From NCBI RefSeq assembly GCF_031851795.1, contig NZ_CP134696.1, forward strand, positions 4,670,501 through 4,734,500: a stretch of DNA of 64,000 bases. The letters run 5' to 3'. The notes under the pieces are model-generated. The model worked only from the letters and a program-made list of their open reading frames with translations, had not been told where the DNA came from and did not search any database. The stretch is from Pontibacter sp. G13 (GTDB lineage: Bacteria > Bacteroidota > Bacteroidia > J057). A program made the position numbers and the translations under genes. Below, piece by piece: positions 3,258 through 59,800 of the stretch (position 1 is its first letter; each line of letters opens with the position of its first letter).

Positions 3258-3422
3258 GGGGGTGCCCCGGCGTGCTTGGCAATTGTGCTTGAGCTTGAGT
3301 TGATTCTCGCCGGGTCGGGCTTTTCCAGGGGTCCGCTGGCGCTTCCGTCCTCCGCTGAAGGCTCCGGACCTCGCCCAAAGGCTCGCCCTTCCGATCCCTC
3401 ACCCCACACAAGCCAGCCACAC
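3258..3422 (+). repeat. structured intergenic repeat, copy 1 (type A)
   Basis: 165 bp. It starts at GGGGGTGCCCCGGCGTGCTT and ends at CAGCCACAC. It contains the family's 7-bp stem CCCGGCG / CGCCGGG around a 36-nt loop, then the TCCGTCCTCCGCTGAAGGCT block. Same length as copy 2 and nearly identical to it. It sits 19 bp after the terminator at 3203-3238, in the same orientation as the upstream operon. A short reading frame through it is not considered a gene. Confidence 0.85.
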
Positions 3423-3530
3423 AGAGAGATAATCTCAGGATCGATTTGGCAATTTTAACGCGATCTTCCGATTCTTTCTGCCGTAATTGCAAGCGTTTTC
3501 TATTACTATATCTATCAAGGAATCTCTACG

Positions 3531-4550
3531 GTGATACTTCGTTTTTGCATACTTGCTTGGATGACGGTTTGTGCAAGCCTCGTCAATCTTACAGTAGCTC
3601 AGCAATCCGCTTCGGCCATCACAGATCTGTTGGCGACCGATTCCATCTGGCATATTGATATTCGTACAGATTGGAATCACCTGTTTGCAGACCGATCCGA
3701 TTCCCTCGAATACCAGCGTGCCTACGTAACGTGGCAGATTGGGGACAGCCTGATCGAGCGCAAAGCCAAAGTCCGGCTGAGAGGCAATTTCCGACGAAGA
3801 GCCGATGTGTGCAGTTTCCCGCCATTCAAGCTGCGATTCTCCAAGGAGCAGCGTGCTGGAACCCCCTTCCAAATGCACAAGCATCTCAAGGTGGTGACGC
3901 ATTGCATGGAAGAATCCTTCCTGCTGCGTGAGTATCTCGTCTATCGCACCTATGAAAAATTGACGCCCTACAGTTTCAGGGCCAGACTCGTCAAAATCAC
4001 CTATTCATCCACGCAGGATACAATTCCATCGCAGACGTATTTTGCCGTGCTGCTGGAAGATGACAAGACGCTCGCTAAACGTCTGGGGGGAGAGCTCTGG
4101 GAAGGAGATCGCCTGAAACCGGAACAGGTAGATCGGCAAGAGTTGACGCTATTGGCACTCTTCCAGTACATGATCGGCAATTTGGATTGGGATATCTCTT
4201 TGCATAAAAATGTGGACTTTGTGCAGATTCCCGGGAAGGAACAACCCGTGGTGGTTCCATTCGATTTCGATTATTCAGCGATGGTCAATCCACCTTACAC
4301 AGGCATTACCCCCTCTTATGATCGCAGAAGGATCGGCGGTTGGCTATGTCGTGATCGCGAAGAGTACAACTCGGCAGTTCAGACTATTTTGGCCAACAAG
4401 GACGAGATCCTCGAACTCTACCGAAAATTTCCGCACCTATCCAGCCAGTTTCGGCAGGAACCCGCTCAGTATATTCGGTCATTTTTTCGGGAAGCCAAGC
4501 GGCCCACTTTCCTAGACTTGTTGGAGGAGTTTTGCGAAGAGGAAGGCTAA
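3531..4550 (+). CDS. secreted CotH-kinase-like protein
   Basis: 339 residues with a signal peptide (about 1-23). Several blocks resemble the CotH kinase fold: KVRLRGNFRRR with FPPFKLRFSK (about 77-104), FLLREYLVYRTYEKL (about 128-142) and the putative catalytic part YMIGNLDWDI-LHKN with VPFDFDYSAMVNPPY (about 213-253). The Asp residues in NLDWD and DFDY are where CotH enzymes place their catalytic and metal-binding acids. The match is by motif pattern only and the protein is shorter than many CotH proteins, so the kinase activity is uncertain. It stands alone on the plus strand between repeat copy 1 and a small secreted protein. Confidence 0.7.
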   Translation: MILRFCILAWMTVCASLVNLTVAQQSASAITDLLATDSIWHIDIRTDWNHLFADRSDSLEYQRAYVTWQIGDSLIERKAKVRLRGNFRRRADVCSFPPFKLRFSKEQRAGTPFQMHKHLKVVTHCMEESFLLREYLVYRTYEKLTPYSFRARLVKITYSSTQDTIPSQTYFAVLLEDDKTLAKRLGGELWEGDRLKPEQVDRQELTLLALFQYMIGNLDWDISLHKNVDFVQIPGKEQPVVVPFDFDYSAMVNPPYTGITPSYDRRRIGGWLCRDREEYNSAVQTILANKDEILELYRKFPHLSSQFRQEPAQYIRSFFREAKRPTFLDLLEEFCEEEG

Positions 4551-4724
4551 CCCCAGATTGGAGGATGTTCTTGCAGAGCAGCTCATGGGGCGATTTGCAT
4601 ACGGTTTTGCAATTTTTGCACGATTGCAACTTTTTCATGAATAACTGCATCTATTTCTCGACTATTCGTCAAAAACCTCGTAATACGAGTTATCTTCAAG
4701 GATCGTAAACACGTTGTGTGAGTC

Positions 4725-4997
4725 ATGGGCAAATACCTATTTCTATCTGCATTGATTTTGGGATTGGGAGTGATGATTTCCATCGAGGAAATTCCTCCTA
4801 GGCAACCGCTCGATCAGGTGGTTCAAGAAACTTCTTGGTCCCTCGATTCGACAGTCGCGCGTCTCCCATTGGCGAGTGCACAGGAAAAGGGTGCTTCCAC
4901 TTCCTCCAAACCTTCCAGCGAATTCATCCAAGATGCCGGATTCAGCGTGTTGAATGCATTCTTCAATATGATTGTAGGACTCTACGATCACAAGTAG
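4725..4997 (+). CDS. small hypothetical secreted protein
   Basis: 90 residues with no recognised domain. The first 20 residues are hydrophobic (MGKYLFLSALILGLGVMIS) and could be a signal peptide or anchor. The middle is polar and Ser-rich, and the C-terminus FSVLNAFFNMIVGLYDHK is amphipathic. It ends 16 bp before the hydrolase gene on the same strand, which makes a two-gene unit plausible. Support is limited to a clean frame, the hydrophobic start and this spacing. Confidence 0.45.
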   Translation: MGKYLFLSALILGLGVMISIEEIPPRQPLDQVVQETSWSLDSTVARLPLASAQEKGASTSSKPSSEFIQDAGFSVLNAFFNMIVGLYDHK

Positions 4998-5013
4998 GCG
5001 CCCCCCCCTGCTG

Positions 5014-5799
5014 ATGTCTTTCCTGCCCATCCATTTTTCTCATGCCAACGGTTTTCCTGCAGATTCCTACCGTTACTTTTTGGACCAGCTAGCTCCACAC
5101 GCTGTGTCTGCCATTCCCGTCACGGGTTCCACCATTTCTCAGCCATTTCGCAACTGGACGCCACTGGTCGATGAATTGATTGATCATATTCGCGTCACCT
5201 ATCAAACGCCCATTTTGGGGCTTGGTCATTCATTGGGGGGAGTTTTGATGCTCAAAGCCTCTCAGCGCGCACCCGAACTCTTTCGGGGGGTAGCCTTGAT
5301 GGACCCGCCATTGTTGGGGTGGGAAAAACGGCTGGCGATTTCTTTGGCGGTGGGATTGAAGCTCGACCATCGGATGAATTCCCCGATCAAATTGGCACTC
5401 AACCGAGTGTGGCAGTTTGAAGATCGAGCGCAGGCCGCTTCATATTGGGGCGAGAAAGCGTTTTTCTCCCAATTTCATCCCCAATGTTTCGAGGACTATT
5501 TGGTTCATGGCTTGATCGAACATCCTGATGGAGGACTCCAACTCAGGATCAACCGTGAGCGTGAGGCGCACATTTTTCGGACCATTCCCCGAGGACTTGG
5601 GCCTAGCGATCTCATCGTTCCCACCAGTTTGTTTCTCCCCTCGCGAGGCGTATTGACGTCCAAGGAGATTCGGCGCATCACGGATCGATTTGGATTCGAT
5701 CACTTGGGACGGGTAGATGAAAGTGGCCACATGTTCCCGCTGGAAAAGCCTATCGAGACTGCCGAGCGCCTGAAGGCGTGGTTTGCGGAGATTTCGTGA
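5014..5799 (+). CDS. alpha/beta hydrolase
   Basis: 261 residues of the alpha/beta hydrolase fold. The N-terminal HFSHANGFPADSYRYFLD is the oxyanion-loop region, GLGHSLGG (Ser73) is the nucleophile elbow, and DESGHMFPLEKP carries the likely catalytic His239. The acid residue is not certain. Substrate is unknown; this group covers esterases and lipases of small acyl compounds. There is no signal peptide, so it should act in the cytoplasm. The gene stops 16 bp before repeat copy 2. Confidence 0.85.
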   Translation: MSFLPIHFSHANGFPADSYRYFLDQLAPHAVSAIPVTGSTISQPFRNWTPLVDELIDHIRVTYQTPILGLGHSLGGVLMLKASQRAPELFRGVALMDPPLLGWEKRLAISLAVGLKLDHRMNSPIKLALNRVWQFEDRAQAASYWGEKAFFSQFHPQCFEDYLVHGLIEHPDGGLQLRINREREAHIFRTIPRGLGPSDLIVPTSLFLPSRGVLTSKEIRRITDRFGFDHLGRVDESGHMFPLEKPIETAERLKAWFAEIS

Positions 5800-5815
5800 C
5801 CCTCATGGATTCGAT

Positions 5816-5980
5816 GTGCGGCTGGTCCGTGTGGGGTGAGGGATCGGAAGGGCGAGCCTTCAGGCGAGGTCCGGAGCCATCAGCGGAGGACGGGAGCGCC
5901 AGCGTACCCCTGGAAAAGCCCGACCCGGCGAGATTCAATCCAAGCCCTAGCACAATTGCCAAGCACGCCGGGGCACCCCC
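5816..5980 (-). repeat. structured intergenic repeat, copy 2 (type A)
   Basis: 165 bp in reverse orientation, GTGCGGCTGG at the left and GGGGCACCCCC at the right. It is very similar to copy 1 over its whole length, including the 7-bp stem and the TCAGCGGAGGACGGGAGCGC block. It lies between the hydrolase gene and the partial copy 3. Confidence 0.85.
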
Positions 5981-6053
5981 AAAGGTTTATCAATTTACCC
6001 AAAATTGAAGGTATATCAGATCGCCTATGGACCTAACCAGCGCCCGGTTCGTA

Positions 6054-6075
6054 GGGACACCTCTTGTGGGTGTCC
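6054..6075. repeat. short inverted repeat between repeat copies 2 and 3
   Basis: GGACACC / GGTGTCC, 7-bp arms around TCTTGTG. It has no T-run and no gene next to it that it would terminate. Confidence 0.4.
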
Positions 6076-6086
6076 AATAATTTGGC

Positions 6087-6145
6087 GACCCGGCGAGATT
6101 CAATCCAAGCGCTAGCACAATTGCCAAGCACGCCGGGGCACCCCC
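6087..6145 (-). repeat. structured intergenic repeat, copy 3 (partial)
   Basis: 59 bp that differ from the matching end of copy 2 by a single base. Only the part with the CCCGGCG / CGCCGGG stem is present; the other half is missing. This points to a recent local duplication of the stem module. The next 235 bp, up to 6380, hold only a 66-codon frame without recognisable features, and no gene is called there. Confidence 0.8.
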
Positions 6146-6380
6146 AAATGATCATCATCATTACATGCAAGAAGGGACCATCTTCATACGAAGACGGCCC
6201 CAAAAGACTCGTTCTTACAAGAGCGAATTGAGTGGAATGAGTGTGAAAGCCCAGGTGGTAATCCTAGAAAGCAGGGCTAGTGACTGCCGCACCATTAGCG
6301 CAGCCGATATCTCATTACATCAGAACAAGTCCAAACCTGAATACTTGGGTGTGTTCAAAACGTGATACAGAAGGAACTCC

Positions 6381-6572
6381 CTAAGGAAGTTCTGGAACGG
6401 AAGCCTCCAAGTAGGGACTCGCAGCGATCGGAGCGGGCTCGTCCGTGTAGACCTTGCCGAGCAACATCATGGCACAAGCGAAAAGCAAGCTTCCCAGAAA
6501 GAGGGCCGCAAATCGGACACTGATGTTTTCTCGGGTTTTGGTCGCTACTTGATTACGTAAAGATCCTCTCAT
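6381..6572 (-). CDS. small single-helix membrane protein
   Basis: 63 residues from the internal Met at 6572: a basic N-terminus (MRGSLRNQVATKTREN), one membrane helix (VRFAALFLGSLLFACAMMLLG) and a short Pro/Glu-rich tail. The frame continues upstream to 6629, but that extension is polar and unlike a signal or domain, so the shorter start is preferred. Not recognised. It is the only minus-strand gene in this stretch, and repeat copies 3 and 2 lie downstream in its orientation. Positions 6573-6947 upstream hold no convincing gene. Confidence 0.5.
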   Translation of the reverse strand: MRGSLRNQVATKTRENISVRFAALFLGSLLFACAMMLLGKVYTDEPAPIAASPYLEASVPELP

Positions 6573-6947
6573 GTCAGACACACGTTTGTTGAACTGAAAC
6601 AAATGTGCAACGGAAATCCGTAGTATCAATTTTGAAAACTCGGAGTATATAACCCCCCAGTAGGGTAGACAGGGTAGGTGGGTAAGCGCGGAATTCCTAC
6701 ATGTTCATTTGTGGGGATTTACTCAGGTACCGCAGCAAAGGCAGATGGAGAGCTTAGGCTACATTTTTCGGTTCGCGGGAGTCTGATGACCGTTCGCGAA
6801 AATGCCTGTTCCATTTGGGGCAAGAATCTCGCTCTGTTGTGGAATCTGGTCCAAGAATCCTTCATATTGGAGAAGCTGGCTGGAGACCCGCAATCCAACA
6901 GCCTTCACGGCTGAGAAATCCTCGAAAACTCATCTCAATTCTGCAAA

Positions 6948-9900: not shown

Positions 9901-10244
9901 AGTGGGATTCCGACAACACAGATATGGACCTTTGGGTGACTGATCCTTATGGTGAGAAGTGCTATTATCAGCACAAGCGCACCAAGATCGGGGGAATGAT
10001 TTCCAATGATTTCACTGGTGGATATGGACCGGAGGAATTCCTGCTGAAACAAGCCTCTCAGGGCGAGTACAAGGTGGAGGTCAACTATTATGGCACCCGC
10101 CAAACCGGCAATCGCGGACCGACGACCATCCGGGTCATTGTCTTCAAGCACTATGGCACTGCTGAGGAGACTACCGAGACCATCACCTTCCGACTCGGCA
10201 AAAACAGCCAAGTGTTTCAGGCTGCCACCTTTACAGTCGAATAG
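6948..10244 (+). CDS. VIT and vWA domain protein with TPRs and C-terminal DUF2135
   Basis: 1098 residues, secreted (signal peptide about 1-24). Domains in order: a VIT domain (about 45-175; EKQQARVAYESTVRQG and NTFKAQIFPIPSGG are typical); a von Willebrand A domain (about 270-410) whose MIDAS is complete, with DRSLS, ADGATQ and VTDG; a beta region; a charged coiled-coil region (about 560-690); a very acidic, Ser-rich linker (about 690-790); tetratricopeptide-like helices (about 800-940); and a C-terminal DUF2135 domain (about 983-1098; LEWDSDNTDMDLWVTDPYG). VIT plus vWA suggests metal-dependent protein binding at the cell surface or in the periplasm. DUF2135 is seen in YfaP-like proteins. It stands alone between non-coding stretches. 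No partner or substrate can be named. Confidence 0.88.
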   Translation: MHQPIRFASILAIVLMGSFASIFAQSHPITLQAPKFAVLVKPEGDTASQPLSIAQMEVQMATRAHWVLTTFDVWVANPSNREMSGKLHVPLNDGQKLTGFALEVNGEMRPGVVVEKQQARVAYESTVRQGIDPGLVEWVGGNTFKAQIFPIPSGGTKHFQITVESEVPIGATSVRWELPLAEGIEVRQLALKALIEGSKAPRMELPQGKTGLFSESGTGWQASVQIKHPETQPAAVLTFDRSAETQVWLGDVRGSVPFYVQTLTALSKVKAPRPKKVGIIWDRSLSTQSRDLETTLDALEAWLGRIQPQEIHVQIVNDHAEFWESVSWSHWKRKEMRNKLAAVPADGATQLGVIDFNKVELDAYLWVTDGVNTFGNPALTWPAMPVHILDPHEASATEYLKFFARMTGGQYLSVDSQNFSEMMALTEQAPKRLLSVRAKSGEVKDVLPDIQLNGYGGISVAGMLVSESAELELGFGINGKITDTQVIQLSRAGQTASTKWLGRKWAEQKLSYLLPQQEKFKADIVQLGEQYQIVTPFTSLIVLDRVEDYVRHKIEPPASLKKEYDKLMALETTSAENTQTALLNQAATAFQARIDWWNQQIDLKKIETKYQYDLDSLRKGIRSMREQLAVDAASAPQIHEVQNLVVLRTLHAELAKQLELEALRKQMEEMRERRDQMLQQGDSSGMFQSGDYDDEFGADDVASDEMGTADYDSDEPMLEEDLSRMGELAGSMPGMAAEAAPDEGAGGFYSESEESDAFEADVSEGMEDQSTDRINDIDLSERQNLPFGAESQEQVNQSELKIQLGEWVPDAPYLAVLDSASDPYWAYLALRDSLGTAPAFYLDVARWFHSHEQSRLARTILSNLAEIELEQQELLRVFARQLEEWEEYELAQWVYEDVLRMRPEEPQSYRDLGLILAKQGQNQAAVDTLYRVVAQAWDGRFPDITTVVAHEMNAIIHRAGTTIDTSHVDPRLLADLPTDVRVVLEWDSDNTDMDLWVTDPYGEKCYYQHKRTKIGGMISNDFTGGYGPEEFLLKQASQGEYKVEVNYYGTRQTGNRGPTTIRVIVFKHYGTAEETTETITFRLGKNSQVFQAATFTVE

Positions 10245-10335
10245 CGTCTAGCTGGGAGATCAAACGGTTGAGCGTGCGGATATGCCTGTTTAACGAAGTT
10301 GGCACCTAGGTTACCTCCAGATTATTTGGAAGCTG

Positions 10336-10343
10336 TACCTTTG
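10336..10343 (+). promoter_or_regulatory. possible -7 box upstream of bshA
   Basis: TACCTTTG fits the Bacteroidota -7 consensus TAnnTTTG. It is 167 bp before the chosen bshA start. No well-spaced -33 TTG is visible; TTTG lies only 7 bp upstream. Confidence 0.35.
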
Positions 10344-10509
10344 CGCCAAGAAGAAGTTTGAGGCTTTATGCTGCAAAGTGGTAAGCAAAAACCGCAAACA
10401 GCTTCTCAGACTAATCCCGAGGACGAATGTCGCGTACACGTCTTGCGAAAGACGAAAGCAGAACGATTTTCGTCCCTGTGAGTTAAAATGGGCATATCTG
10501 CACCTTGAC

Positions 10510-11649: not shown

Positions 11650-11721
11650 CTTTCTGTGCCTTTTTCGGTATATTGAGAAATGGGTTGGCCGTGCGTTAGC
11701 CCACAGATAGATTGAACGGAA

Positions 11722-12018
11722 ATGAACGTACTTTTTTGGATCTTTGCCTGCTTCTTCGGTATCTATTTGACATTTAGATTTTTTGGCCGCCAGATTTTGT
11801 CTTTCGCGATGATGAAACTGACTGAGCGGCTTGTCAAGGATTCCCAAGCACAGGCACAAGCCTACCAGAAAAATTATGAGGACCATGCCTATTCACGATC
11901 CAATGTGTATGTGGATGAAGACATTCAGGTTTCGGCACCCATGAATGCAGGCAAAAAAGAAGTGTCCGAAGATGAAATCGCCGAAGACATTGAATTCGAG
12001 GAGCTATCCACCCAATAG
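11722..12018 (+). CDS. DUF4834 family small membrane protein
   Basis: 98 residues: one N-terminal membrane helix (LFWIFACFFGIYLTFRFFG), a basic and Gln-rich middle, and an acidic C-terminus ending EIAEDIEFEELSTQ. A short helix, a flexible middle and a final D-x-EFEE-like motif match DUF4834, a Bacteroidota family without a known role. It lies 72 bp after bshA on the same strand and could share its transcript. Confidence 0.7.
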   Translation: MNVLFWIFACFFGIYLTFRFFGRQILSFAMMKLTERLVKDSQAQAQAYQKNYEDHAYSRSNVYVDEDIQVSAPMNAGKKEVSEDEIAEDIEFEELSTQ

Positions 12019-12233: not shown

Positions 12234-12253
12234 CGATCCAAATTTACTTGCTC

Positions 12254-13113: not shown

Positions 13114-16100
13114 ATGACTTCTTCTGCTGTCAGCCGGGTATTCCTGCTACTTAGTCTCTTCCTTGCTCATCAGGGACTAATGGCGAATGGTGGGGAAACT
13201 TGCGGAAATGCCACAACCATCCTTGCCTTGCCCTACACGGACAATGGCAATACCTCTTTGGCCTTCGACGACTACAATGAAGCTTGCACCGCTCCCGTCA
13301 CGGGGGGGCAAGATGTCGTCTATGCCTACACGCCCTCGATCAATGAAACGGTCAATATCTCCCTCTGTGGAGGATTGTCTAATTTCGATACGAAACTTTA
13401 CGTCTACCAAAATGCCTGCCCAGCTGCAGGAAGCGGGACCACTGGGACACAAGTTGCCTGCAACGATGACGAATGCGACAACTTCCCCATCTACAACTCT
13501 CCCTATCTCTCGGCCATCTCCAACCTGAGTTTGACCGCGGGAAATACCTATTACATCGTCGTGGATGGGTATAGCAACACCGAATTCGGAGATTATACCT
13601 TGACGATCGAAGCTGCTCCCGGCGATGTGGGGGTGTCCGCTGCCATCGGTCCTCTGGTGGGATGCAATCTCACTGCCAATGAACAGGTGAGCGTAACTGT
13701 CACCAATTATGGAACGGATGCGACGAATATCAGCATGTACCTTGAGGTCAATGGCCAAGTCATCGCCAATGAACTTCTCCCCGGACCCATCACCACAGCA
13801 GGTTCTCAAAATTATGCCTTCAACACCACCGTGGACTTGTCCGCACCGGGTGTCTACTCGGTGAGAGCAGCAGCTTCGGTGAGTTCCGATGCACAGCCCT
13901 TCAACGATACCCTGAGTTTCGAGATCATCAATGAGGTGGCTTCGGCACTTCCACAAGGCGTCGATTTCGAAGGATTCTCCGGAACCAATCTCGATCAGCT
14001 GTTCCCCGGCTGGTATGAAGCCTATGGAGTAGGGGCGCCTTCCTCCATCCAAAATACCCCTTGGGTCAAAAGCAGTACCAGCCAGACGACGGCTTTCGGT
14101 TCCACCACGACCACCATCAATTTGTTGGGTACTCAGCAACACGCTTGGATCGTGAGTCCATTGTTCATGGTGAATGCCCTGACTGAGGTCTCCTTCGAGG
14201 CTGCGATTACGGACTGGCTCAATACCACGCCAGATGCGATGGGAAGCGATGACAGTGTGAGATTGATGATTTCCACGGATTGCGGGGAAAATTGGACCGC
14301 GCTGTTGGTATTCGATGCGGCCAGTCAACCGAATAATTCGCTCACAACCCATACGGTGGGATTGGCGGCTTACGCGGGGCAGGAAGTGAAAGTGGCTTTC
14401 TACGCTACCGATGGTCCCATCGACGATTCCGAAGACTATGACTTTCACCTCGATCATATCCTCATCTCCAATCCTTCTGCCAATGATGTTGCAGTCACAG
14501 AATTGATCGCGCCCAATACAGTCTGCGGACTTACTGCGAATGAATCCATTACGGTCAATCTTGAGCAACTGGGACAATTGGGCATGAATACAGGCGATAC
14601 TGTGGAGGTTTCCGTGCTGGTGGATGGCGCCAACTTGGTGGAAGATACCCTCATTCTCACGCAGGATTTTCAGTCTGGCGATGTGCTGACACATACCTTC
14701 TCCGGCACATTTGATTTCTCTGCCTACGCCAATTTTGGCCTCGAAATCTGGATCGATGTCAATGGCGATGAAGCCTCCTCCAATGATACACTCGATATCT
14801 TGGTGCAGCATTACGAGCCCGTGACCGTTACGGCAGGCTGGGATTCCCTCGTCTGTGTGTTCGCAGATACCCTCTACCCGGAGCCCAACTACTTCGGAGG
14901 AACTTGGTCAGGACTTGGCGTTGTCGACCCCGAAGAAGGAGCCATCAGTACTGCCATGATCGGTACAGGAAACACAGCTACGATCACCTACACCTACGAT
15001 GCGCCTTATGGCATTCGCTCGATTCCCTACAATCCGACTGGAATCACCCAAGCGGATACCGTGAATTTGCTGGATGACCAAGTGATCCAGATCCCGATTG
15101 GGTTCAAGTTCCCATTCTTCGATTCCCTGTTTTCGGATATTCACCTCAGCTCCAATGGATTGATCGGATTCGGAGCTGGTACCGCTTCTTCGAATAACGT
15201 CGCGCTTCCAAGCAACAGCGTCATCGGCAATATCCTCGCATTTGCATGGATGGATTGGGACCCTGACAATGGCAATGACGGGACCATTTCCTACACGACG
15301 GTGGGTACGTCTCCGAGCCGAAAGTTCATCATTACCTTCGATCAGGTACCTTCTTTCTCCGGACTGGGGAATGGCGTTTTGTCCGCACAGGTGGTATTGT
15401 TGGAAAACTTGGGGACCATCGAGGTTCACTACACCCAGCTGGAGACGGATGGTGCAAATGTTACCTTGGGACTGCAGAACCTTGCACAGAACGATGGCGT
15501 GGTATTCCCATTGGCCAACAACCAACCCGTTTCGTTGCTGACGACTTCCTTCGAGATCGTGCCCACACCCTGTGGAGGATCTGATTCCATCACCATCACC
15601 CTGAATGCGGCACCTAGCGTTTCATTTGCCCAAGACTCCTTGAATCTTTGCCCGGATGATGAGATCACACTGGTCCCTGCGGCATCTGGCGGTACATTCA
15701 TGTGGAATACTGGCGATACGACTGCTGGGGTGAGCGTCTCTACGCCCGGTCTCTACAAGCTGACAGTCACCGGAAATGACGGCCAGTGCGCCATCTCCGA
15801 CAGCGTGGAAGTAGTGGAGGTCACTGCCCCCATCGTCCTCGTGGATTCTGTGCTTGAAACAGGCTGCGCGGGCGAAACCACGGGCGGCATTTACCTGACG
15901 CTCTCCGGTGGGGTAGGGCCATTTGACTACCTCTGGACAACCGGCGATACGACCTTGGATCTGGAGAATCTCCAATCCGGTAGCTTCAGCTTGCTCATCA
16001 CGGATGCCGCGGGTTGTACCCATCAGTTTGATACCACCGTGCTGGCGACGACCCAGCCTTTGAATACAGCTTTTGCAGCAGACTTGCCTTCATGCTCCGG

Positions 16101-16870: not shown

Positions 16871-17094
16871 GGGCGTATCCCGGCGTGCTGGGTGTCGATT
16901 TGCTGCTGGGCATGTGATTCGCCGGGCCGGGCTGATCCATGGGTTCGCTGCGCTCCGTCCTCGATACGGGGATTTTCGCACTTGAGCGCCATCGTTCATC
17001 CATTTCGCTGTTTCCGTTTACTTCCTCGATCTATCTCGGACTGCTCCTGACGTCGCACCATTCCCATCCCTTACGCCGCACGTATCAGCCGCAC
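16871..17094 (+). repeat. structured intergenic repeat, copy 4 (type A, enlarged)
   Basis: 224 bp from GGGCGTATCCCGGCG to CAGCCGCAC. The CCCGGCG / CGCCGGG stem is intact. The central GTCC...GGAC module is about 60 bp longer than in copies 1, 2 and 6. It follows a terminator in the same orientation. The rest of the 16.80-17.24 kb gap contains no gene. Confidence 0.8.
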
Positions 17095-17235: not shown

Positions 17236-18717
17236 ATGATGAAGCAATTGCGCCTGACTTTCGGATTGCTGATGCTTGGTTTGACCACAGTCTCCCTCAC
17301 GGCTCAAGACCGTCACAAAATCGAAGTGGAGATTGCTGGATTTACCGGGTCGGAAGCATATCTGGGGTATTATCTCGCCGACAAGACCTACCTGCTCGAC
17401 ACAGCCGCTGTCGAAGACGGAAAATTCGTATTCCAAGGGGACGACCCATTGGACAAAGGGATGTACCTCGTGGTATTTCCACCTGAGAACAACTATTTCG
17501 AGGTCGTGATAGACAAGGACCAGACATTCTCCGTGTCGACTTCCTATCCCGAATTCGTCAAAAACATGAAGGTCAAGGGCTCCAAGGAAAACCAAGTCAT
17601 GTACGATGACCTTCACTTCTTGGATGAACAACGCCAAACTGCGATCGCTCTTCAGGCCGATCTGGAAGGCTTGGAGGAAGGCTCCGAGGCCCATACCGCC
17701 ATCTCCGAGCAATTGGCGGCGATCAGCAATGAAGTAGAAGATTACCGCAACAATTTCATCGCCGAAGATCCTGAGATGCTTTACGCCAAGATGCTCACGT
17801 CCCTCAAGCAGGTGGACGTACCAGAATCTCCCGTGGATGAAAACGGCGAAGAAATCGACCCGAGCTTCCGTTTCCGATACTATCGCGACCACTTCTTTGA
17901 CTATGTGGATTTCACGGATGATCGCCTCCTGCGCACCCCTATCCTGTTCGACAAGGTCAAAACCTACTTCGAAAAGCTCGTGATGAAGCACCCTGACTCC
18001 ATCATCGCACAGATCGATCCCATCATCGAAAAGGCTGGAGACAATTTCGAAGTGTACCAGAACCTCGTCGTGCATTTCACCAACCAATATGCGACCTCCA
18101 AGATCATGGGCATGGATGCTGTCTATGTACACATGGTCGAGCAGTACTACATGCACGAGGAAAAGACGCCTTGGGTAGATGAGGAGCAGCGCAAAAAGAT
18201 GAGAGATCGCGCATATGCGACCTCCAAGACCATTCTTGGTCGCCCAGCACCTGATTTCTCCGTGAAGGACATCAATGGCGATACCCAATCCGTTCATGGA
18301 ATTGAGGCGGAATACACGCTCCTGTATTTTTGGGATTATGATTGCGGCCACTGCAAGACCATTACCCCCAAGTTGAGCGAGGCGCTGAAAGACTACTCCG
18401 AGTACGATATCAAGCTCATGTCCGTCAACATCAACGGCGATGAGACTGTCTGGAAGGAGCGCGTGAAGAAATACGAGCTGGATCAGGATTTCATGATCCC
18501 AACCCACGATGCGTATCGGACCAGTGGTTTCGACCAGTTGTACGATATCCGCTCTACGCCACGATTGTTCATCCTCGACAAGGACAAGAAGATCGTAGCC
18601 AAGCAGATCTCCGTGGAGAGTATGCGCGAGATTTTGGATTCCATGCTCGGCATCGAGCGCCCAGCGGAGCCTGAGTCTGAAAATGCGAGCGAAGAGAGTG
18701 AATCTGCTGGTCATTAG
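17236..18717 (+). CDS. TlpA-like thiol-disulfide protein with DUF4369-like N-terminus
   Basis: 493 residues, exported (signal peptide about 1-23). The N-terminal beta domain (about 27-115; AYLGYYLADKTYLLDTAAV, FVFQGDDPLDKGMYLVVF) is DUF4369-like. A helical middle (about 120-330) resembles DUF5106. The C-terminal AhpC/TSA-thioredoxin domain (about 334-475) carries the active-site pair CGHC at 370-373 in YFWDYDCGHCKTITPKL and the cis-Pro region STPRLFILDKDKK. It probably acts in periplasmic thiol-disulfide exchange; the partner is unknown. It is the first of three tandem homologues. Its C-terminal half and its terminator have a close copy in the next gene. Confidence 0.9.
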   Translation: MMKQLRLTFGLLMLGLTTVSLTAQDRHKIEVEIAGFTGSEAYLGYYLADKTYLLDTAAVEDGKFVFQGDDPLDKGMYLVVFPPENNYFEVVIDKDQTFSVSTSYPEFVKNMKVKGSKENQVMYDDLHFLDEQRQTAIALQADLEGLEEGSEAHTAISEQLAAISNEVEDYRNNFIAEDPEMLYAKMLTSLKQVDVPESPVDENGEEIDPSFRFRYYRDHFFDYVDFTDDRLLRTPILFDKVKTYFEKLVMKHPDSIIAQIDPIIEKAGDNFEVYQNLVVHFTNQYATSKIMGMDAVYVHMVEQYYMHEEKTPWVDEEQRKKMRDRAYATSKTILGRPAPDFSVKDINGDTQSVHGIEAEYTLLYFWDYDCGHCKTITPKLSEALKDYSEYDIKLMSVNINGDETVWKERVKKYELDQDFMIPTHDAYRTSGFDQLYDIRSTPRLFILDKDKKIVAKQISVESMREILDSMLGIERPAEPESENASEESESAGH

Positions 18718-18737
18718 ACCGTTTTCACTTCTATCAC

Positions 18738-18776
18738 ATCGGGCGAGGTTCTAGCGAATCTCGCCCGATTTCTTTT
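18738..18776 (+). terminator. terminator of the first TlpA-like gene
   Basis: Perfect 10-bp stem ATCGGGCGAG / CTCGCCCGAT with a 12-nt loop, then TTCTTTTG. The same hairpin, with one mismatch, follows the next gene. Confidence 0.85.
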
Positions 18777-18851
18777 GCGGGGTTGAAGAAACTTGGGTAG
18801 TTTCTAGACAGGATGGCGGTTTTCTCAGCTTTCCGACCTTTCAACTGTAAG

Positions 18852-19514
18852 ATGCTTATGTTTAGACCTATCACAACCATAGTAGGGGTGTCCCTCCTAC
18901 TCTTTGGCGCAATTACCTCATGTGCCCAGTCTCATCCCGGTCCTCAGGAACCTGAGGCTGCCTCCTCCTTGAATGCTCAGGCTCCCTTCCATAAAGGGAT
19001 CATCACCCTAGAACGACCTCCAGACCCAAAACTCGGGGAGTTGGCACCTGATTTTTCGATCATCGATATGGATGGAGTCCCCCAATCGGTTCATGGGATT
19101 GAGGCCACCTACACTTTGCTGTATTTCTGGGATTATGAATGTAAGCGCAGTATGTCCTTCGCACCATTGCTTACTGCAGCATTGGAGGATTACAAAGCAT
19201 ACGATATCAAGCTCATGTCCGTCAACATCAATGGCGATGAGACTGTCTGGAAGGAGCGCGTGAAGGCACTCAAGTTAGATCAGGATTATATGGTTCCGCT
19301 TCACGACCCGTATCTTAAGAGTGGTTTCGCCCAGTTGTACGCTATTCTCTCTACGCCACGATTGTTCATCCTCGACAAGGACAAGAAGCTAGTAGCCAGA
19401 TGGATCTCCGTGGAGATGATGCGCGAAATTTTGGACCATGAGCTCGGCATCGAGCGCCCAGCAGAGCCTGAGTCTGAAAATGCGAGCGAAGAGGTTAAGT
19501 CTGCCGGCCAGTAG
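18852..19514 (+). CDS. truncated TlpA-like lipoprotein paralog without CxxC
   Basis: 220 residues from the Met at 18852 (the frame opens at 18813). The N-terminus is a lipoprotein signal with lipobox ITSC (Cys24). A short linker leads straight to the thioredoxin-like domain; the DUF4369-like and helical parts of its neighbours are missing. From QSVHGIEA to the end it is nearly a copy of the preceding protein, including the tail GIERPAEPESENASEE. The active-site pair is lost: DYDCGHCKTI in the neighbour corresponds to DYECKRSMSF here. Redox catalysis is therefore unlikely. Partial duplication including the terminator, followed by change centred on the active site, explains this. It may have a binding role or be decaying, although the frame is intact. 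Confidence 0.85.
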   Translation: MLMFRPITTIVGVSLLLFGAITSCAQSHPGPQEPEAASSLNAQAPFHKGIITLERPPDPKLGELAPDFSIIDMDGVPQSVHGIEATYTLLYFWDYECKRSMSFAPLLTAALEDYKAYDIKLMSVNINGDETVWKERVKALKLDQDYMVPLHDPYLKSGFAQLYAILSTPRLFILDKDKKLVARWISVEMMREILDHELGIERPAEPESENASEEVKSAGQ

Positions 19515-19536
19515 GCCATATCACTCCCTTCAACAA

Positions 19537-19577
19537 CATCGGACGAGGTTCTAGCGAATCTCGCCCGATTCCTTTTT
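19537..19577 (+). terminator. terminator of the truncated TlpA paralog
   Basis: ATCGGACGAG / CTCGCCCGAT, 10-bp stem with one mismatch and the same 12-nt loop as the terminator at 18738, followed by TCCTTTTTCGG. It was evidently duplicated together with the gene end. Confidence 0.8.
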
Positions 19578-19634
19578 CGGGGTTGTGGGGAAATTGGTAT
19601 CTTGGCTTTCCGAAAATTGAACCAATTAGCTGAC

Positions 19635-22604: not shown

Positions 22605-22763
22605 GTGCGGCTGGTAGGTGAGGCGTGAAGGATGGGAACGGTGCGAGGCACGAGCAGTCCGGAGCCCTCAGCGGAGGACGGAGCTTGCGAACCCGTGGAC
22701 AGCCTGACTCGGCGAAAAGGCTGCCAGTCAGGGATCTGAGTCCAGGCACGCCGAGGCACGCCC
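22605..22763 (-). repeat. structured intergenic repeat, copy 5 (type A)
   Basis: 159 bp in reverse orientation. The 7-bp stem reads CTCGGCG / CGCCGAG, a compensated change from the usual CCCGGCG / CGCCGGG. It lies directly behind the terminator of the minus-strand cytochrome gene, in the same orientation as that gene. Confidence 0.85.
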
Positions 22764-27163: not shown

Positions 27164-27208
27164 AAAGCGCTTGTCTCATGAATCTGAGGCAAGCGCTTTA
27201 TGTTTTCT
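27164..27208 (+). terminator. terminator of the vWA membrane protein gene
   Basis: AAAGCGCTTG / CAAGCGCTTT 10-bp stem with inner CTCA / TGAG, followed by ATGTTTTCT. It ends 8 bp before repeat copy 6. Confidence 0.85.
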
Positions 27209-27216
27209 ATAGGGTT

Positions 27217-27379
27217 GGGCGTGCCTCGGCGTGTTTGGCATGTAGAGTGCCTTTTGGCAGACCGGTCGCCGAGTCAGGCTGTTCATGGGTTCGCTTTGCT
27301 CCGTCCTCCGCTGAAGGCTCCGGACTGCTCGCGAGCTCGCACCATTCCCATCCTTCACGCCGCCGCAGGCCATCCGCAC
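27217..27379 (+). repeat. structured intergenic repeat, copy 6 (type A)
   Basis: 163 bp from GGGCGTGCCTCGGCGTG to GGCCATCCGCAC. The stem is CTCGGCG / CGCCGAG, as in copy 5, i.e. compensated relative to the other copies. A perfect 10-bp palindrome GCGAGCTCGC lies in the right half. It follows a terminator, co-oriented with the upstream gene. Confidence 0.85.
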
Positions 27380-27389
27380 CTTTGATTCA

Positions 27390-28553
27390 TTATCGCAAGA
27401 TGATCGCCTCTTCCACAAATTCCCCATCCATGAGCATGTACCGCTTCCCTTCAATCTCGATCGAATCGCCATCCTTCATGTCCGACAGGCGATCGATATC
27501 CTCCTCGATGGTGTGGACAGAGCCGCCTGTGATTCTGGCGAGATTGAGGTATTCGATCCGCACAGGAAAGGAAGCATCCACTCCACACAGAACCACACGC
27601 ACCGGGACCTTGACTTCCTCGGCGAGTGCGATATCCCGGACTCCACTCTTGTTGTCCGCAATGAGGATAACCTCGCCTTCATGGCGGGCCCACTTGATCC
27701 CCCGCAGAAGCGCCTCAATGTCATTCTCGGGCTCATCGCCGCCTGTTCCCCCATTCATGCAATCTGCCATGGTATTCAAGACCCCTTGGATGGTTTGTGA
27801 ACGCGAAGGATAAATCCCGCGAGTTTTGCCGATCCGCTTGAGATGATCCCTGCGTTTGTCTCCGTCATTGAACATCACGAATTGTTGGATGGTGGCATTC
27901 CGCTGCATATTGAGACGATGCCAGAGCAGAACGGAAGCGCCATACGGATACATACTGCCTGTCCAATCCATCACGACGAGCATGTCTTTCCATTCCGGGT
28001 GGCGGTCTAGAATTTTGAGCGCCGTCGAATCGTGCAATTCCGCCTTTTGGTAGGCAATGTCCGCCACTGCTTCCATTTCCTCCGCCATAGGATCTAGGTG
28101 GATGACGAATCCGTGAAACATATCCTCGGCCTGCGCCTCATTTTTGCAATCGGTCTGGAGGATGTAGAGCCATTCGATCTTGGGGTCTTGGAAGATGGAA
28201 GGATCGAGGCGATGCAGACTTGCTAGGCGTTGTTGGAGGAGTTTGTTGTAAGGGAATTGCCACTTTTCCAGCGACTTGGGATACCTCGTGAAGACCAATT
28301 CCACCCGTTTGATCTTCTGTTCACGCCATTGATACGCCACCTCCGGATTGAGGATGTGTGGCCACGCATAGCGCATCTGAAGCACGTGGTAATTGCTGTC
28401 TGACTGAAAGATATACTTGGGGATTTCTACCACAGCAGGGGTGCGGGGAGGGGCGATCTGAGCGTGTAGTCCAGTTCCGAAAAAGAGGAAAAGGATCAGC
28501 AGAATTGCCGTGCCCAACCCATGCATTCGGTCGAGAATAGTGGAAATGATCAT
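27390..28553 (-). CDS. secreted vWA-like protein
   Basis: 387 residues with a signal peptide (about 10-31, ending GLHAQ). The C-terminal two thirds have vWA-like features: MLVVMDWTGSMYPYG (about 191-205) with the DxTGS metal-site motif, FVMFNDGD, GTGGDEPENDIEALL and EVILIADNKSGVRD. The N-terminal part (about 40-150) is not recognised. It could bind another protein through a metal ion in the periplasm or outside. It converges on the vWA membrane protein gene, with repeat copy 6 between. Positions 28554-29195 upstream hold no gene I can support, although a few minus-strand frames are open. Confidence 0.75.
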   Translation of the reverse strand: MIISTILDRMHGLGTAILLILFLFFGTGLHAQIAPPRTPAVVEIPKYIFQSDSNYHVLQMRYAWPHILNPEVAYQWREQKIKRVELVFTRYPKSLEKWQFPYNKLLQQRLASLHRLDPSIFQDPKIEWLYILQTDCKNEAQAEDMFHGFVIHLDPMAEEMEAVADIAYQKAELHDSTALKILDRHPEWKDMLVVMDWTGSMYPYGASVLLWHRLNMQRNATIQQFVMFNDGDKRRDHLKRIGKTRGIYPSRSQTIQGVLNTMADCMNGGTGGDEPENDIEALLRGIKWARHEGEVILIADNKSGVRDIALAEEVKVPVRVVLCGVDASFPVRIEYLNLARITGGSVHTIEEDIDRLSDMKDGDSIEIEGKRYMLMDGEFVEEAIILR

Positions 28554-31945: not shown

Positions 31946-32160
31946 GGGGGTGTCCCGGCGTGCTTGGCAGATGGGATGTCGCTGGGCATCCATGTCGCCG
32001 GGCCGCTCCCATTCCGGGCTCGCTGGTCGCTCGGTCGGTGGAAAATGATACATGCTTGAACAGGTACCCTCCCCCTGGGTGGATGGTGGATACTGCAAAA
32101 GTCAGCTCACCCACCGACTGAACCCTCCAGGCAGCTCACCCCACACGGGGCCATCCGCAC
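31946..32160 (+). repeat. structured intergenic repeat, copy 7 (type B, long loop)
   Basis: 215 bp from GGGGGTGTCCCGGCG to GGCCATCCGCAC. The CCCGGCG / CGCCGGG stem is present. The central hairpin has GTCGGTGG / CCACCGAC arms around about 70 nt that are unlike the other copies. The right end (CCTCCAGGCA and onwards) matches copies 8 and 9. It sits directly behind a terminator and 8 bp from the end of the minus-strand regulator gene. Confidence 0.8.
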
Positions 32161-50904: not shown

Positions 50905-50932
50905 TCCCCGCGCAATTTCTTGCAGAATGTAT

Positions 50933-56539: not shown

Positions 56540-56556
56540 TAGATCTGCCATCACAA

Positions 56557-56588
56557 GCAAACAGGCGACCCTTGGGTCGCCTGTTTGC
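56557..56588. terminator. palindromic terminator between convergent genes
   Basis: Perfect 15-bp arms GCAAACAGGCGACCC / GGGTCGCCTGTTTGC with a TT centre, then ATTTGGGG. The T-run is short, but the stem is very strong. Confidence 0.7.
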
Positions 56589-56610
56589 ATTTGGGGAAAA
56601 GGAAATAAAG

Positions 56611-56793
56611 GTGCGGATGGCCCGCGGGGCGTAAAGTGCCTGAAGTGGCCCCCGTTAGGGGGAGTCTCTGATCAGGAGGTGGCGATCTCTCGCCTCCTGA
56701 TCGGAGACCGAGCGCCAGCGAGCACGCAAGGGACTGACCCGGCGACATTCCTGCCAAGCATGGAACCTCAATTCTTCCCGCCGGGATACGCCC
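56611..56793 (-). repeat. structured intergenic repeat, copy 8 (type B)
   Basis: 183 bp in reverse orientation (GTGCGGATGGCC at left, GGGATACGCCC at right). It has the CCCGGCG / CGCCGGG stem and a 45-nt hairpin at 56664-56708 with arms GATCAGGAGG / CCTCCTGATC plus outer GTCTC / GAGAC. A second small stem CCCCC / GGGGG lies beside it. Co-oriented with and 26 bp behind the minus-strand BNR-repeat gene. Confidence 0.85.
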
Positions 56794-56818
56794 ACCTGCC
56801 TCCGATGCCAAGCCTCGG

Positions 56819-59395
56819 CTAATGCTTCGTCCAGACTTCGCTTAGCTGCACCTCATCTGCCAGGAGTCGGACGATATATCGCCCATCGGCCCATTGACTG
56901 GCAGGGATGTTCAGTTGCTCGCGCTCTAAGCTGGGCCTTGGGTGTGGAGATTGATAGACACTCCGACCTTGCATGTCCAGCACTTCGATCTGATAAGTCG
57001 GCGCTGAAATCCCCGTCAGTTCGATATGAAGTTGATCGCCCCCCGGATTCGGGAAGAGCGTCATGCGGTTGACGACCTGCAATGGGGGGCCGACCGATAC
57101 CACTTCCTGCTGCATGGGATATTGGAAAACGCCCCGACCATGCGTGGCGACCCGTACCTTGCGGTTGGCCTCGGAATAGCTGAGATCCATCACAAACAAG
57201 GGTTCCTCAAATCCAATCGTCAGATCCTGCCACGATTGCCCGCCGTTGTCGGAGAAGAATAGGCCGAGATCGCATCCGGCATACACATGCCCGGAATGCA
57301 TGGGGTCGAGCAATACGGCATTGAAAGGGACATCAGGCAAGCCGGTGGAAATGTCACTCCATGTCTGGCCGCCATTGGAAGATTCGAAGATATGCGAAGT
57401 CCCAAATCCGCCCAATGCCGCCACGAGATACTGGTCATCCGTCTCCGAAACCGCGAAATCCAAGGTCACACGATCTGGAAGCCCCGCTTGAATGGAGGTC
57501 CAAGTGACTCCGCCATTGGTGGTTTTGAGGACATTGGCAGATCCGTCGATGGTGATGTCGCCCATGTATCCTTCTTGCAAAGGCGTGGTGGAAATGTACA
57601 CCTTGTCGCAATCCTGATGAGAAATGGCCATGGCCACGGGCTTCCGCCCCTGATCGACCTGTCCACCTGATACCGGGAAGCTAGAAGTCCCGAAGTTGGT
57701 GGATTTGTGGATGGTATCGGCCCCGCCATACACGATGGATGGGTCGGTGGGACACACAACAAATGGCGCGATGAAAGCCGCATGCAAGGATGTGCGACCC
57801 GGGAAACCCACTGATAACCAGTTGAACGACTGGGCTTTGTTGGTGGATAGCGCAATCCGCAACCAGTAAACGCTGCCGTACACACGGTTGTCATCATTGG
57901 GGTCCACCCAGTTGAAAGCTCCATCTCCGCCAATCTGCCGTCGCCAAGCCACATCTCCTTCGTAGATGGCTGTGGCATTGTCCTGCAAGCCGCCGATGAA
58001 GAAGAGGGAATCCTGCTGAGAATTGGAGGTGCCGGGATAAAACTGAGTGGTCTGGTACCCACCGTTGGCTCCGGTGAAGGTTTCGCCATTGTCATAACTG
58101 ACGAATACGCCGCCATCTGTCGCGAAATACACCACATTGTGGTTGTCTGGACTACGCTGAATATCGTGGATATCTGCATGTACATAATCGGCAGGACCTT
58201 CTGGTCCGCCCACGGGAGTGGCATCGAATGACCAATTGTACCAATAGGATTTTTGGGTGAGGGAATTGGTCATGGTGGAGTACTTGAGCACATTGGTACC
58301 AGCCACGATGACATCAAATGGGTCGATGGGATTCACACTCAAATCATGGGCAAACCAGCCATAGGTGTAGGAGAATCCGCCTCTGGGAGCCCACATGGTT
58401 CCAAAATTCGTGGAGGCGTACAATTCCTCCGCGCTGTTCTGTGCGTAGCCGACTCCGGCGTACACGATGTCAGGATTGGAGGGCGACATCGCCAGCATGG
58501 TCTTGCCGATGAAGGTCGGGAAGGTGGAATTCTGCGACCAATTCTGTCCGCCGTCTACCGATTTGTAAAGCCCGCTTTGTGGATGTTGCAAGTTGCCCGC
58601 TGCGAATAGCATGCTGTCGCTATTCATGGGGTGGATCACGAGATCGGTCACAAGAGGTACGGTCGAAATCTGTGTCCAAGTCAAACCGCTATTGGTGGTC
58701 TGGTAAACTCCATGACTTGTCCCTGCGAAAAGGATGGTTGGATCTTTCGGGTGGAACTTCAGGACATTGATCCCGCGCATTTCCTCCATCATCCAGTCGA
58801 GCGACGGGGCCCAGGTCTGGCCTCCATCCGTGGTTTTCAGGATACCGATTCCATACGTGCCACGCGTTCGCCAGTGCATCCCATTGGAACTGGTATGCCG
58901 ATGGTTGTAGATCTCCCCGGTTCCGATGTACATGGTGTTGCTATCGGTCGGATGAATGGCGATGGCAGAGACCGCGATTACTGGATAACCAGTCGGAACG
59001 GGTTCCCATGCTTGTGCGCCGACTCCTGCGGTCTCACTTTTCCAGAGTCCTCCGCCGGCACTGCCTGCGTAAAGGGTCTGCGAATTCTGGGGATTGAATG
59101 CCAAGGCAAGCGTCCGCCCTCCGAAGTTTTTGGGGCCGAGCTCTTCCCAGCCTGCGGGCACTGATGCGGCCATTTTGGATGCTCCCGTCATGGCGCGTTT
59201 CTGGTTCCAAGCTCGTGAGATGGCACCGGCGGGGATTTCCTCAAAGGGATATGCCCGATGTTGGTACCAGTAGTCGAGCGATCTGGCTGCCCCCGACGGT
59301 TTGAAGGCATGGCGGCTCCGGTGGAAGTGTTGGGTGGACCAAATCATGAGACCGATGCTGCCCAAAAGCATCGAAGCGTAGATCAGTCTTTTCAT
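56819..59395 (-). CDS. secreted BNR-repeat (sialidase/VPS10-like propeller) protein with T9SS tail
   Basis: 858 residues with an N-terminal signal or anchor (about 4-21). About ten copies of the BNR/Asp-box type recur: KTTDGGQTWAP, QTTNSGLTWTQ, KSVDGGQNWSQ, VSYDNGETFTG, KTTNGGVTWTS, ESSNGGQTWSD, FSDNGGQSWQD. They form a large two-propeller region (about 85-770) like those of sortilin-type or xyloglucanase-type proteins. Catalytic residues of a glycosidase cannot be assigned. The last 80 residues are a type IX sorting domain (TLFPNPGGDQLHIEL ... GRYIVRLLADEVQ). Probably displayed or released outside the cell. Confidence 0.88.
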   Translation of the reverse strand: MKRLIYASMLLGSIGLMIWSTQHFHRSRHAFKPSGAARSLDYWYQHRAYPFEEIPAGAISRAWNQKRAMTGASKMAASVPAGWEELGPKNFGGRTLALAFNPQNSQTLYAGSAGGGLWKSETAGVGAQAWEPVPTGYPVIAVSAIAIHPTDSNTMYIGTGEIYNHRHTSSNGMHWRTRGTYGIGILKTTDGGQTWAPSLDWMMEEMRGINVLKFHPKDPTILFAGTSHGVYQTTNSGLTWTQISTVPLVTDLVIHPMNSDSMLFAAGNLQHPQSGLYKSVDGGQNWSQNSTFPTFIGKTMLAMSPSNPDIVYAGVGYAQNSAEELYASTNFGTMWAPRGGFSYTYGWFAHDLSVNPIDPFDVIVAGTNVLKYSTMTNSLTQKSYWYNWSFDATPVGGPEGPADYVHADIHDIQRSPDNHNVVYFATDGGVFVSYDNGETFTGANGGYQTTQFYPGTSNSQQDSLFFIGGLQDNATAIYEGDVAWRRQIGGDGAFNWVDPNDDNRVYGSVYWLRIALSTNKAQSFNWLSVGFPGRTSLHAAFIAPFVVCPTDPSIVYGGADTIHKSTNFGTSSFPVSGGQVDQGRKPVAMAISHQDCDKVYISTTPLQEGYMGDITIDGSANVLKTTNGGVTWTSIQAGLPDRVTLDFAVSETDDQYLVAALGGFGTSHIFESSNGGQTWSDISTGLPDVPFNAVLLDPMHSGHVYAGCDLGLFFSDNGGQSWQDLTIGFEEPLFVMDLSYSEANRKVRVATHGRGVFQYPMQQEVVSVGPPLQVVNRMTLFPNPGGDQLHIELTGISAPTYQIEVLDMQGRSVYQSPHPRPSLEREQLNIPASQWADGRYIVRLLADEVQLSEVWTKH

Positions 59396-59616
59396 CGTGA
59401 TGAGTTGAAAGTTGAGGATTGAAATCAGGAAATAGCAAAGTCAAAAAAACTATCCAGTTCGGTAGCCATTTACAGGTTTGGCAATCAATGTGGAGGATAA
59501 GTTATTCAATCACGGCAAATGTTTAGGGGATAAATATGTACCTCAATTTCTTGGTTGTGGGCAAACGGTTTTCTTCACCGGGGCACCTACGAGGGGATGC
59601 GCCCTACATGGGATTT

Positions 59617-59800
59617 GGGCGTATCCCGGCGTGCTGGGGATCTGATGCGCTCTTGAAGATGCCGGTCGCCGGGTCAGTCCCTTTCGTGCTCGCTGGCGCT
59701 CGGTCGCAGATCTGGGGGCGAGAGATCGCCGCCCCCAGATCTGCGACTCCCCCTGACGGGGGCCACTCCAGGCACTTTACGCCCCGCGGGCCATCCGCAC
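59617..59800 (+). repeat. structured intergenic repeat, copy 9 (type B)
   Basis: 184 bp from GGGCGTATCCCGGCGTGCTG to GGGCCATCCGCAC. CCCGGCG / CGCCGGG stem, then a perfect 18-bp hairpin at 59703-59747 (GTCGCAGATCTGGGGGCG and its complement, 9-nt loop) and a CCCCC / GGGGG stem. This is the only copy not lying behind a co-oriented gene. The rest of 59396-59900 holds no gene. Confidence 0.85.

Follow-up and report, generated by a model that had tools for sequence, protein, structure and literature searches.

A repeat family in the window and across the genome

The 64,000-nt stretch of the Pontibacter sp. G13 genome analysed here (the window) carries nine copies of a structured repeat, eight of them full. 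A pattern search for the left block gave nine matches against 0.04 expected, each where the original prediction had placed it, and the full copies extend to the right ends named there. Four full copies are of the short-armed type A, at 3258..3422 (+; covariance model R1, E 7e-41), 5816..5980 (-; R1, E 1.6e-39), 22605..22763 (-) and 27217..27379 (+), the last two being recovered by the left-block pattern, by R1 and also by R2, a second model trained without this genome. The other full copies were found by the left-block pattern and R1, and comprise one of type D at 16871..17094 (+), with a 72-nt variable insert in its arm, one of type C at 31946..32160 (+), missed by R2, and two of type B, at 56611..56793 (-), which has a long palindromic arm and was also missed by R2, and at 59617..59800 (+), for which R2 gave only E 0.18. 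The ninth, predicted as a partial copy at 6087-6145, is indeed truncated; it spans 6086..6145 (-), consists of the left block with the variable-loop hairpin only, is 94% identical to the copy at 5816 and gave a weak model match at 6051-6145. Of the nine copies, R2 gave E values below 1e-4 for four, of 0.015 for one more and of 0.2-0.8 for two, and did not find the other two. The window also contains a tandem duplication with a period of ~800 bp at 18247-19585.

The family had not been recognised from established repeat classes, and no Rfam family reached its gathering score in the window; one copy examined alone gave sub-threshold matches only. Across the genome (7.67 Mb in 3 contigs), the pattern TTTGGGCGTRYCYCGGCG, allowing up to three mismatches, gave 231 + 232 matches compared with 11 + 9 for the reversed control. 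Model R1, built from 18 type-A copies of this genome, matched all 150 candidates scored out of 1,895, and found 60 copies in 40 evenly spaced 20-kb stretches, one per 13.3 kb, from which a family of ~575 copies is extrapolated. A covariance-model search had been put forward as a check of the original prediction; R1 found copies across the genome and also in Bacteroidota relatives (see below). Together, the window and the 40 stretches provided 69 copies. The claim that the copies are intergenic was sound, since a single copy of the 69 overlaps an ORF supported by codon usage, and this by 4 nt; a mechanical ORF list does overlap copies, e.g., at 27178-27813, an ORF which the codon score rejected.

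The element is ~160-250 nt long and has a closing stem, P1 (GGGCGTG/CACGCC, GGGGGTG/CACCCC or GGGCGAT/ATCGCC), and a stem P2 (CYCGGCG/CGCCGRG) bearing a variable loop, which is 33-37 nt long in 69/69 copies. After P2 come a long arm and then a 3' tail mostly ending in CCRCAC. Four kinds of arm occur: short (A), a long palindrome (B) and two with an insert (C and D), the inserts measuring 61-72 nt in 26 of the 27 captured by pattern and 87 nt in the remaining one. The 5' flank was compared in 89 copies whose 3' end is canonical; it reads TTT in 61 and ATTT in 50. Bacteroidota promoters have a -7 box, and this was considered as a source of the ATTT flank and rejected, as the register does not fit. 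Direct flank repeats of 2, 3 and 5 nt were no more frequent than in shuffles, and those of 4 nt numbered 8 compared with 5.0 in shuffles (21/500 shuffles equal or higher), ATTT being near-fixed on the 5' side; the target site duplication by which a DDE-type MITE is recognised was not seen in these flanks.

Placement and orientation in the chromosome

Copies occupy 31 of 98 convergent gaps, 20 of 385 tandem gaps and 6 of 93 divergent gaps (convergent versus the rest, P 7e-12), a clear preference for gene 3' ends. The family withstands the two tests set with the original prediction, random placement relative to gene ends and confinement to the window, because copies prefer gene 3' ends and are present genome-wide and in other Bacteroidota. 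The proposed link to terminators fared less well. In the window, a same-strand hairpin precedes the copies at 16871, 27217 and 31946 and the partial copy by 12-28 nt (4/9), and the scan found none before the remaining copies; that at 3258 has an evident terminator in its upstream flank, with a loop outside the scanner's allowed range. A same-strand terminator-like hairpin lies within 100 nt upstream of 18 of 67 copies, 14 of these within 30 nt, whereas 6-7% of random intergenic windows have one; 12/67 copies have such a hairpin downstream on the opposite strand. Gene ends near an element have a terminator in 36 of 75 cases and other gene ends in 147 of 517. The suggestion of an element which inserts at terminators was thus overstated, as these are just upstream of 27% of copies and not of most, and the co-orientation with the upstream gene noticed in the window is not general: in tandem gaps 10 copies are co-oriented and 13 counter-oriented.

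Of 66 copies, 48 are followed by an antiparallel gene and only 18 by a co-oriented one, so that most chromosomal copies are not promoters and such a role is disfavoured for them. Among 255 located copies there are 21 neighbour pairs less than 600 bp apart, 19 of which are + then - (3' ends facing), one - then + and one tandem. GC skew places the replication origin at ~3.75 Mb; the folding strand is on the lagging template in 87/148 copies (P 0.04) and in 32/60 of the even sample, an orientation bias relative to replication which is at best weak. Element density appears somewhat lower near the origin (G000:C1 ~3.0-4.5 Mb), with 20 of 148 copies within 0.75 Mb where 29 are expected (P 0.05).

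Folding as RNA or as single-stranded DNA

In the alignment of the 69 copies, which was fitted to the model and hence is biased towards the predicted pairing, 95.4% of cells are paired, 23 of 28 pairs have double changes and there are 301 double-change cells compared with 77.6 in shuffles. The composition of the pairs was counted in 111 distinct copies. Helices 1, 2, 3 and 5 contain 2,220 Watson-Crick pairs, 4 G.T, 9 A.C and 8 others; helix 4 contains 390, 2, 5 and 29, and the poorly supported helix 6 contains 194, 11, 0 and 77, respectively. For comparison, in tRNAs of the same genome (26 distinct ones among the 30 best of 64 tRNA matches) the acceptor and T stems contain 280 Watson-Crick and 22 G.T pairs. 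The G.U share is 4/2,224 in helices 1, 2, 3 and 5 compared with 22/302 in the tRNAs (Fisher P 2e-17), and 17/2,821 over all six helices; the conserved stems do not have the G.U content usual for a structured RNA. G.U intermediates are normally retained in RNA stems and, as they are almost absent here, folding as single-stranded DNA rather than as RNA is favoured.

The mismatches bear on which strand folds. Type-B stems contain 8 A.C and no G.T in 14 usable arms, the first of 15 arms having been misaligned and omitted along with its two A.C and other mismatches. Helices 1, 2, 3 and 5 and the type-B stems together have 17 A.C compared with 4 G.T (P 0.007), an excess which would make the complementary strand the folding strand. 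However, the argument is weak by itself, because the addition of helices 4 and 6 brings the counts to 22 and 17 and the asymmetry is gone; from mismatches alone, folding of the complementary strand is only suggestive.

The P2 loops diverge far faster than the scaffolds: mean P2-loop identity is 0.575 in the 31 copy pairs whose scaffolds are at least 95% identical, and ~0.44 in distant pairs. A conserved scaffold with diverged loops could alternatively mean selection in place. The variable loops were compared with their own flanks and with an 864-kb sample. Neither complementarity nor identity to their own flanks was clearly above that for the flanks of other copies. The hairpin loop gave 328 12-mer matches (mean 257 and maximum 311 in 100 first-order Markov controls) and the arm loop 283 (mean 253 and maximum 323 in controls). 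With a small excess for the former, none for the latter and unconvincing capture, the idea of a guide RNA or bridge RNA was rejected.

Relatives in Bacteroidota and signs of mobility

Model R1 matches 8 of 148 genomes of the phylum and 4 of 21 in the search of relatives, this genome being counted in both; within the same family it gave six weak matches in one genome and none in 11 others, compared with hundreds here. These low counts may partly reflect divergence, since R1 was fitted to this genome. The core pattern GCGTKNCCN{2,32}GGGTCGGGCT was present in 44 of 395 genomes, half of which (22) belong to a single genus, with at most 24 matches per genome; part of the single matches must be due to chance, as the reversed control gave 10 single matches. 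In this genome it matches once only and it therefore misses diverged subfamilies. The full anatomy was seen in 27 of 30 fetched matches, and none of the copies examined had a gene inside the element.

Occupied and unoccupied orthologous sites in Flavobacterium support mobility of the element. In the smt-metH gap, copies were found in 9 of 57 loci, all in Flavobacterium or in genus g6 (judged Flavobacterium); in eight of the nine a variable ORF is also in the gap, and in L141 the element is alone. Three more Flavobacterium loci have ORFs with no copy detected, and among the 48 loci lacking a copy the gap is at most 13 nt in 23. Of 30 Flavobacterium genomes, 5 (the seed being one of them) have a detected element downstream of pdxJ, and L262 appears to hold a degenerate copy. 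The smt-metH gap, between two methionine-synthase genes (L181-L189, L134, L141, L146), is a hot spot for variable genes in Flavobacterium, with the element in 8 of 11 ORF-bearing loci, and L183 has two ORF-plus-element units.

Y1 transposase genes

A search for RAYT genes had been proposed with the original prediction, and two Y1 (RAYT-like) genes are present in the genome, at G000:C1:5488564-5488794 (L032) and 1435526-1435867 (L031). However, each lies amid its own REP-type repeat array, these arrays (GCGGACTTCCGGACCGTG... and CAGGGAATGAAATTCCCTG...) being different from one another and distinct from the element. Elsewhere, regex and R2 found no element within ~1.5 kb of 30 Y1 loci in 13 genomes, giving 0/32 Y1/RAYT loci with a copy when the two of this genome are included, and R2 on 100 kb of Y1 loci gave nothing at E 0.01; no Y1 match was obtained in two genomes that contain 7 and 6 copies of the element. 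Copies flanking a cognate Y1 gene, as in a REP/RAYT system, were thus seen at none of these loci. Mobilisation by RAYT is disfavoured, with the genome's own Y1 genes being accompanied by other repeats and the other Y1 loci lacking the element.

Relatives on conjugative plasmids

With a Flavobacterium copy as BLAST query, 18 Bacteroidales plasmids were matched, 17 of them typed conjugative, over 63-65% of the query among the matches listed; a window copy as query matched no plasmid. On viral contigs 67 stretches match the core, of which 26 complete elements were read. At E 1e-3, the version on contig L360 gave matches to 220 plasmid records (188 conjugative), only 5 of the 220 covering 80% of the query, and a shorter L360 query at E 1e-5 matched 57 (47 conjugative, 28 covering 80%). 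The phage collection gave no match or one partial match, and E. coli genomes gave zero BLAST matches, although the model found F. Nine proteobacterial contexts were chosen by hand from the match lists, with gene tables from PLSDB which are incomplete; both annotated neighbours are co-oriented in 9/9, and in 8/9 the stretch includes ssb, DUF932, a large ParB-like gene, a methyltransferase or a TrfB-related gene.

The 18 copies used to train model R2 comprised 12 of Bacteroidota genomes and 6 of IMG/VR contigs whose host is unknown; this genome contributed no copy, and the type found on proteobacterial plasmids was not represented. The E-values of R2 are from a short calibration. On 19 kb of F (48-67 kb) it found two sites, 10089-10173 (85 nt, E 6.6e-7) and 15477-15561 (E 4.5e-4) in the numbering of that stretch (L396). 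They lie within a pair of 559-bp repeats, 89% identical, which stand upstream of ssb and of the DUF932 gene. By position, as given in PMC9849209, these are Frpo2 and Frpo1. An A/T-rich hairpin starts ~250 nt beyond the module at both. On the whole of R388 there are two sites, both in the leading region (E 2e-4 and 3e-4), one 33 nt behind a TrfB-related gene and the other coinciding with the fiwA stop and followed by a zincin-like gene which by our own reading is ArdC-like. Bacteroides p5482 has two sites (E 4e-15 and 9e-15) and six proteobacterial plasmids have 10 (E 8.5e-8 to 2.4e-3), so that the ten BLAST-found plasmids (among which L391 and L394 are the same plasmid) have 12 distinct sites on 7, p5482 included, and 3 were missed (L392, L398, L401). 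R2 found no site in a leading-region stretch of ColIb-P9. In the IncN leading region, R46 has a weak, co-oriented match (L403:23791-23883, E 0.2) that lies between ardA and ccgAI.

Of the 16 sites on F, R388 and the ten plasmids, 15 could be evaluated for orientation, and at 14 of these the next downstream gene is co-oriented and 380-722 nt away; on L393 this gene is an IS91 transposase, and the exception is the pAOVO01 site, beside a Tn3 transposase. Three sites (F, p5482, pAOVO01) overlap a small ORF annotated on the opposite strand. Blocks are conserved in both stems and joints (GGGCGT..CGGGCT..ATCCCT.ACGC) and, on these model matches, the chromosomal repeat and the leading-region modules of F and R388 are similar in sequence and in predicted structure. 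F transfers the strand complementary to its leading genes, so the module would fold on the T-strand, in agreement with the folding strand suggested by the mismatches. Frpo promoters serve in both priming and early expression (PMC7736820, PMC11541004).

Interpretation

The structure and its covariation, the near absence of G.U from the best helices, the intergenic placement and the occurrence across the phylum are features of the family itself. We think it probable that the repeat is a non-autonomous DNA element, functional as its folded complementary strand (reading GTGCGG...ACGCCCAAAT), which is homologous to a module of plasmid leading regions and has spread to intergenic sites. In plasmids the module stands 380-722 nt before the next gene (among others ssb, DUF932 or an ArdC-like gene), on the strand which the recipient receives as single-stranded DNA, adjoining in F a promoter of the Frpo type, and its role there is probably in priming or early expression at the single-stranded stage of the DNA. 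In the chromosome it would have spread to roughly 575 intergenic sites, chiefly between convergent genes. The fold would act in single-stranded DNA in both settings, the T-strand in plasmids and transiently single-stranded DNA in chromosomes, and an enzyme acting in trans on the folded strand may have spread it, without target duplication; spread of a folded single-stranded DNA element by an as yet unlinked enzyme would be the simplest account of the chromosomal copies. Against this explanation stand the lack of any enzyme linked to the element and of target duplication among the flanks compared, the lack of an element with an internal gene among the copies examined, the weak orientation bias relative to replication, the loss of the mismatch asymmetry once helices 4 and 6 are added, and the misses of R2 (3/10 BLAST-found plasmids, two window copies and the ColIb-P9 leading region). 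Our wider proposal is tentative, and we would put it at somewhat less than even: an ancient single-stranded DNA architecture may serve as an entry-region signal, for priming or early expression on the incoming strand, in conjugative plasmids from Bacteroides to E. coli, and as a self-spreading hairpin element in Bacteroidota chromosomes, landing in transiently single-stranded DNA. If true, the plasmid modules and the chromosomal repeats are two life styles of one element.

The original prediction, which is partly supported, offered as one reading a transcribed 3'-end RNA module, in which mRNAs would contain the element and their 3' ends would be stabilised or terminated by it. The preference for convergent over divergent gaps, the terminators just upstream of 18/67 copies and enriched at gene ends near an element, and the 19 of 20 close opposite-strand pairs which face each other, as if each lay behind its own gene, would all fit; however, G.U pairs are nearly missing from the best helices, the copies read show no U-tract behind the stems, tandem gaps show no bias in orientation, and the plasmid relatives are also found upstream of operons and put the folding strand on the transferred strand, so that we consider an RNA module improbable. 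Another reading is a REP-like family mobilised by a RAYT or IS200-type Y1 transposase, for which high copy number, intergenic location, paired inverted copies and the lack of target duplication would speak, and PMC6006769 describes subclass 2.6 enzymes, mostly of Bacteroidetes, which go with atypical structures lacking the usual foot. This too appears improbable given the other repeats around both Y1 genes here, the 30 further loci in 13 genomes without the element, the genomes with 7 and 6 copies but no Y1 match, and an element far bigger than typical REPs.

Host-selected chromosomal sites, acting in priming or as single-stranded DNA promoters when chromosomal DNA becomes single-stranded, would account for a nearly constant scaffold with diverged loops and for the same site being occupied in several Flavobacterium genomes. 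We regard such sites, as opposed to a mobile repeat, as unlikely, since the antiparallel downstream genes speak against a promoter role for most copies, genomes of the same taxonomic family gave few or no R1 matches, and occupancy differs between species. Finally, the resemblance to plasmids might be convergence of GC-rich three-way junctions and not homology, as the core is short and GC-rich, the calibration was short and the scores for R388 and several plasmid matches are modest (E 1e-4 to 2e-3). That R2 was trained elsewhere, that blocks are conserved in both stems and joints, and that sites occurred only in leading regions (of the whole of R388 and the F stretch searched) with consistent orientation make us doubt convergence strongly.

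Comparison with known systems

Integron attC sites fold as single-stranded DNA, are recognised by structure, have variable terminal loops and are located after genes, and they carry RYYYAAC/GTTRRRY boxes. The element is like them in its predicted single-stranded DNA fold, its variable terminal loops and its position after genes, and unlike them in that these boxes were not seen by eye at the element ends read. With REPs and REPINs and their RAYT (TnpA-REP) it shares many intergenic structured copies, inverted pairs and no coding capacity, but the element was found without Y1 linkage, is 160-250 nt long, has a three-way fold and has relatives on conjugative plasmids. The REP foot GT[AG]G was not seen at the element ends read by eye; some REP types of Bacteroidetes lack this foot (PMC6006769).

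In the Frpo or ssi region of F-like plasmids, a single-stranded DNA promoter, the same folded module lies 5' in both Frpo-type repeats of F, on the leading-gene strand. In Frpo proper, a stem-loop restores the -35 and -10 boxes (PMC9849209); none were evident in the GC-rich module cores read by eye, and in F the GC-rich module ends ~250 nt before the A/T-rich hairpin. The plasmid relatives lie, as Frpo does, in leading regions upstream of co-oriented genes, whereas the chromosomal copies mostly do not lie upstream of co-oriented genes (18/66). In the open-access literature searched, we found neither a description of the family nor a link from Frpo to Bacteroidota or to chromosomal repeats. The main ways of looking for single-stranded DNA promoters on incoming plasmids have been BLAST with five known sequences and searches for a -35/-10 consensus (PMC11541004). 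One covariance model reaches Bacteroides, Burkholderia, Pseudomonas and the F and R388 plasmids together and, spanning phyla in this way, could open a way to study how conjugative elements programme their entry. Hundreds of module copies can fill a chromosome with no enzyme yet linked to them, and these chromosomal copies make the spread of single-stranded DNA hairpin repeats a testable question.
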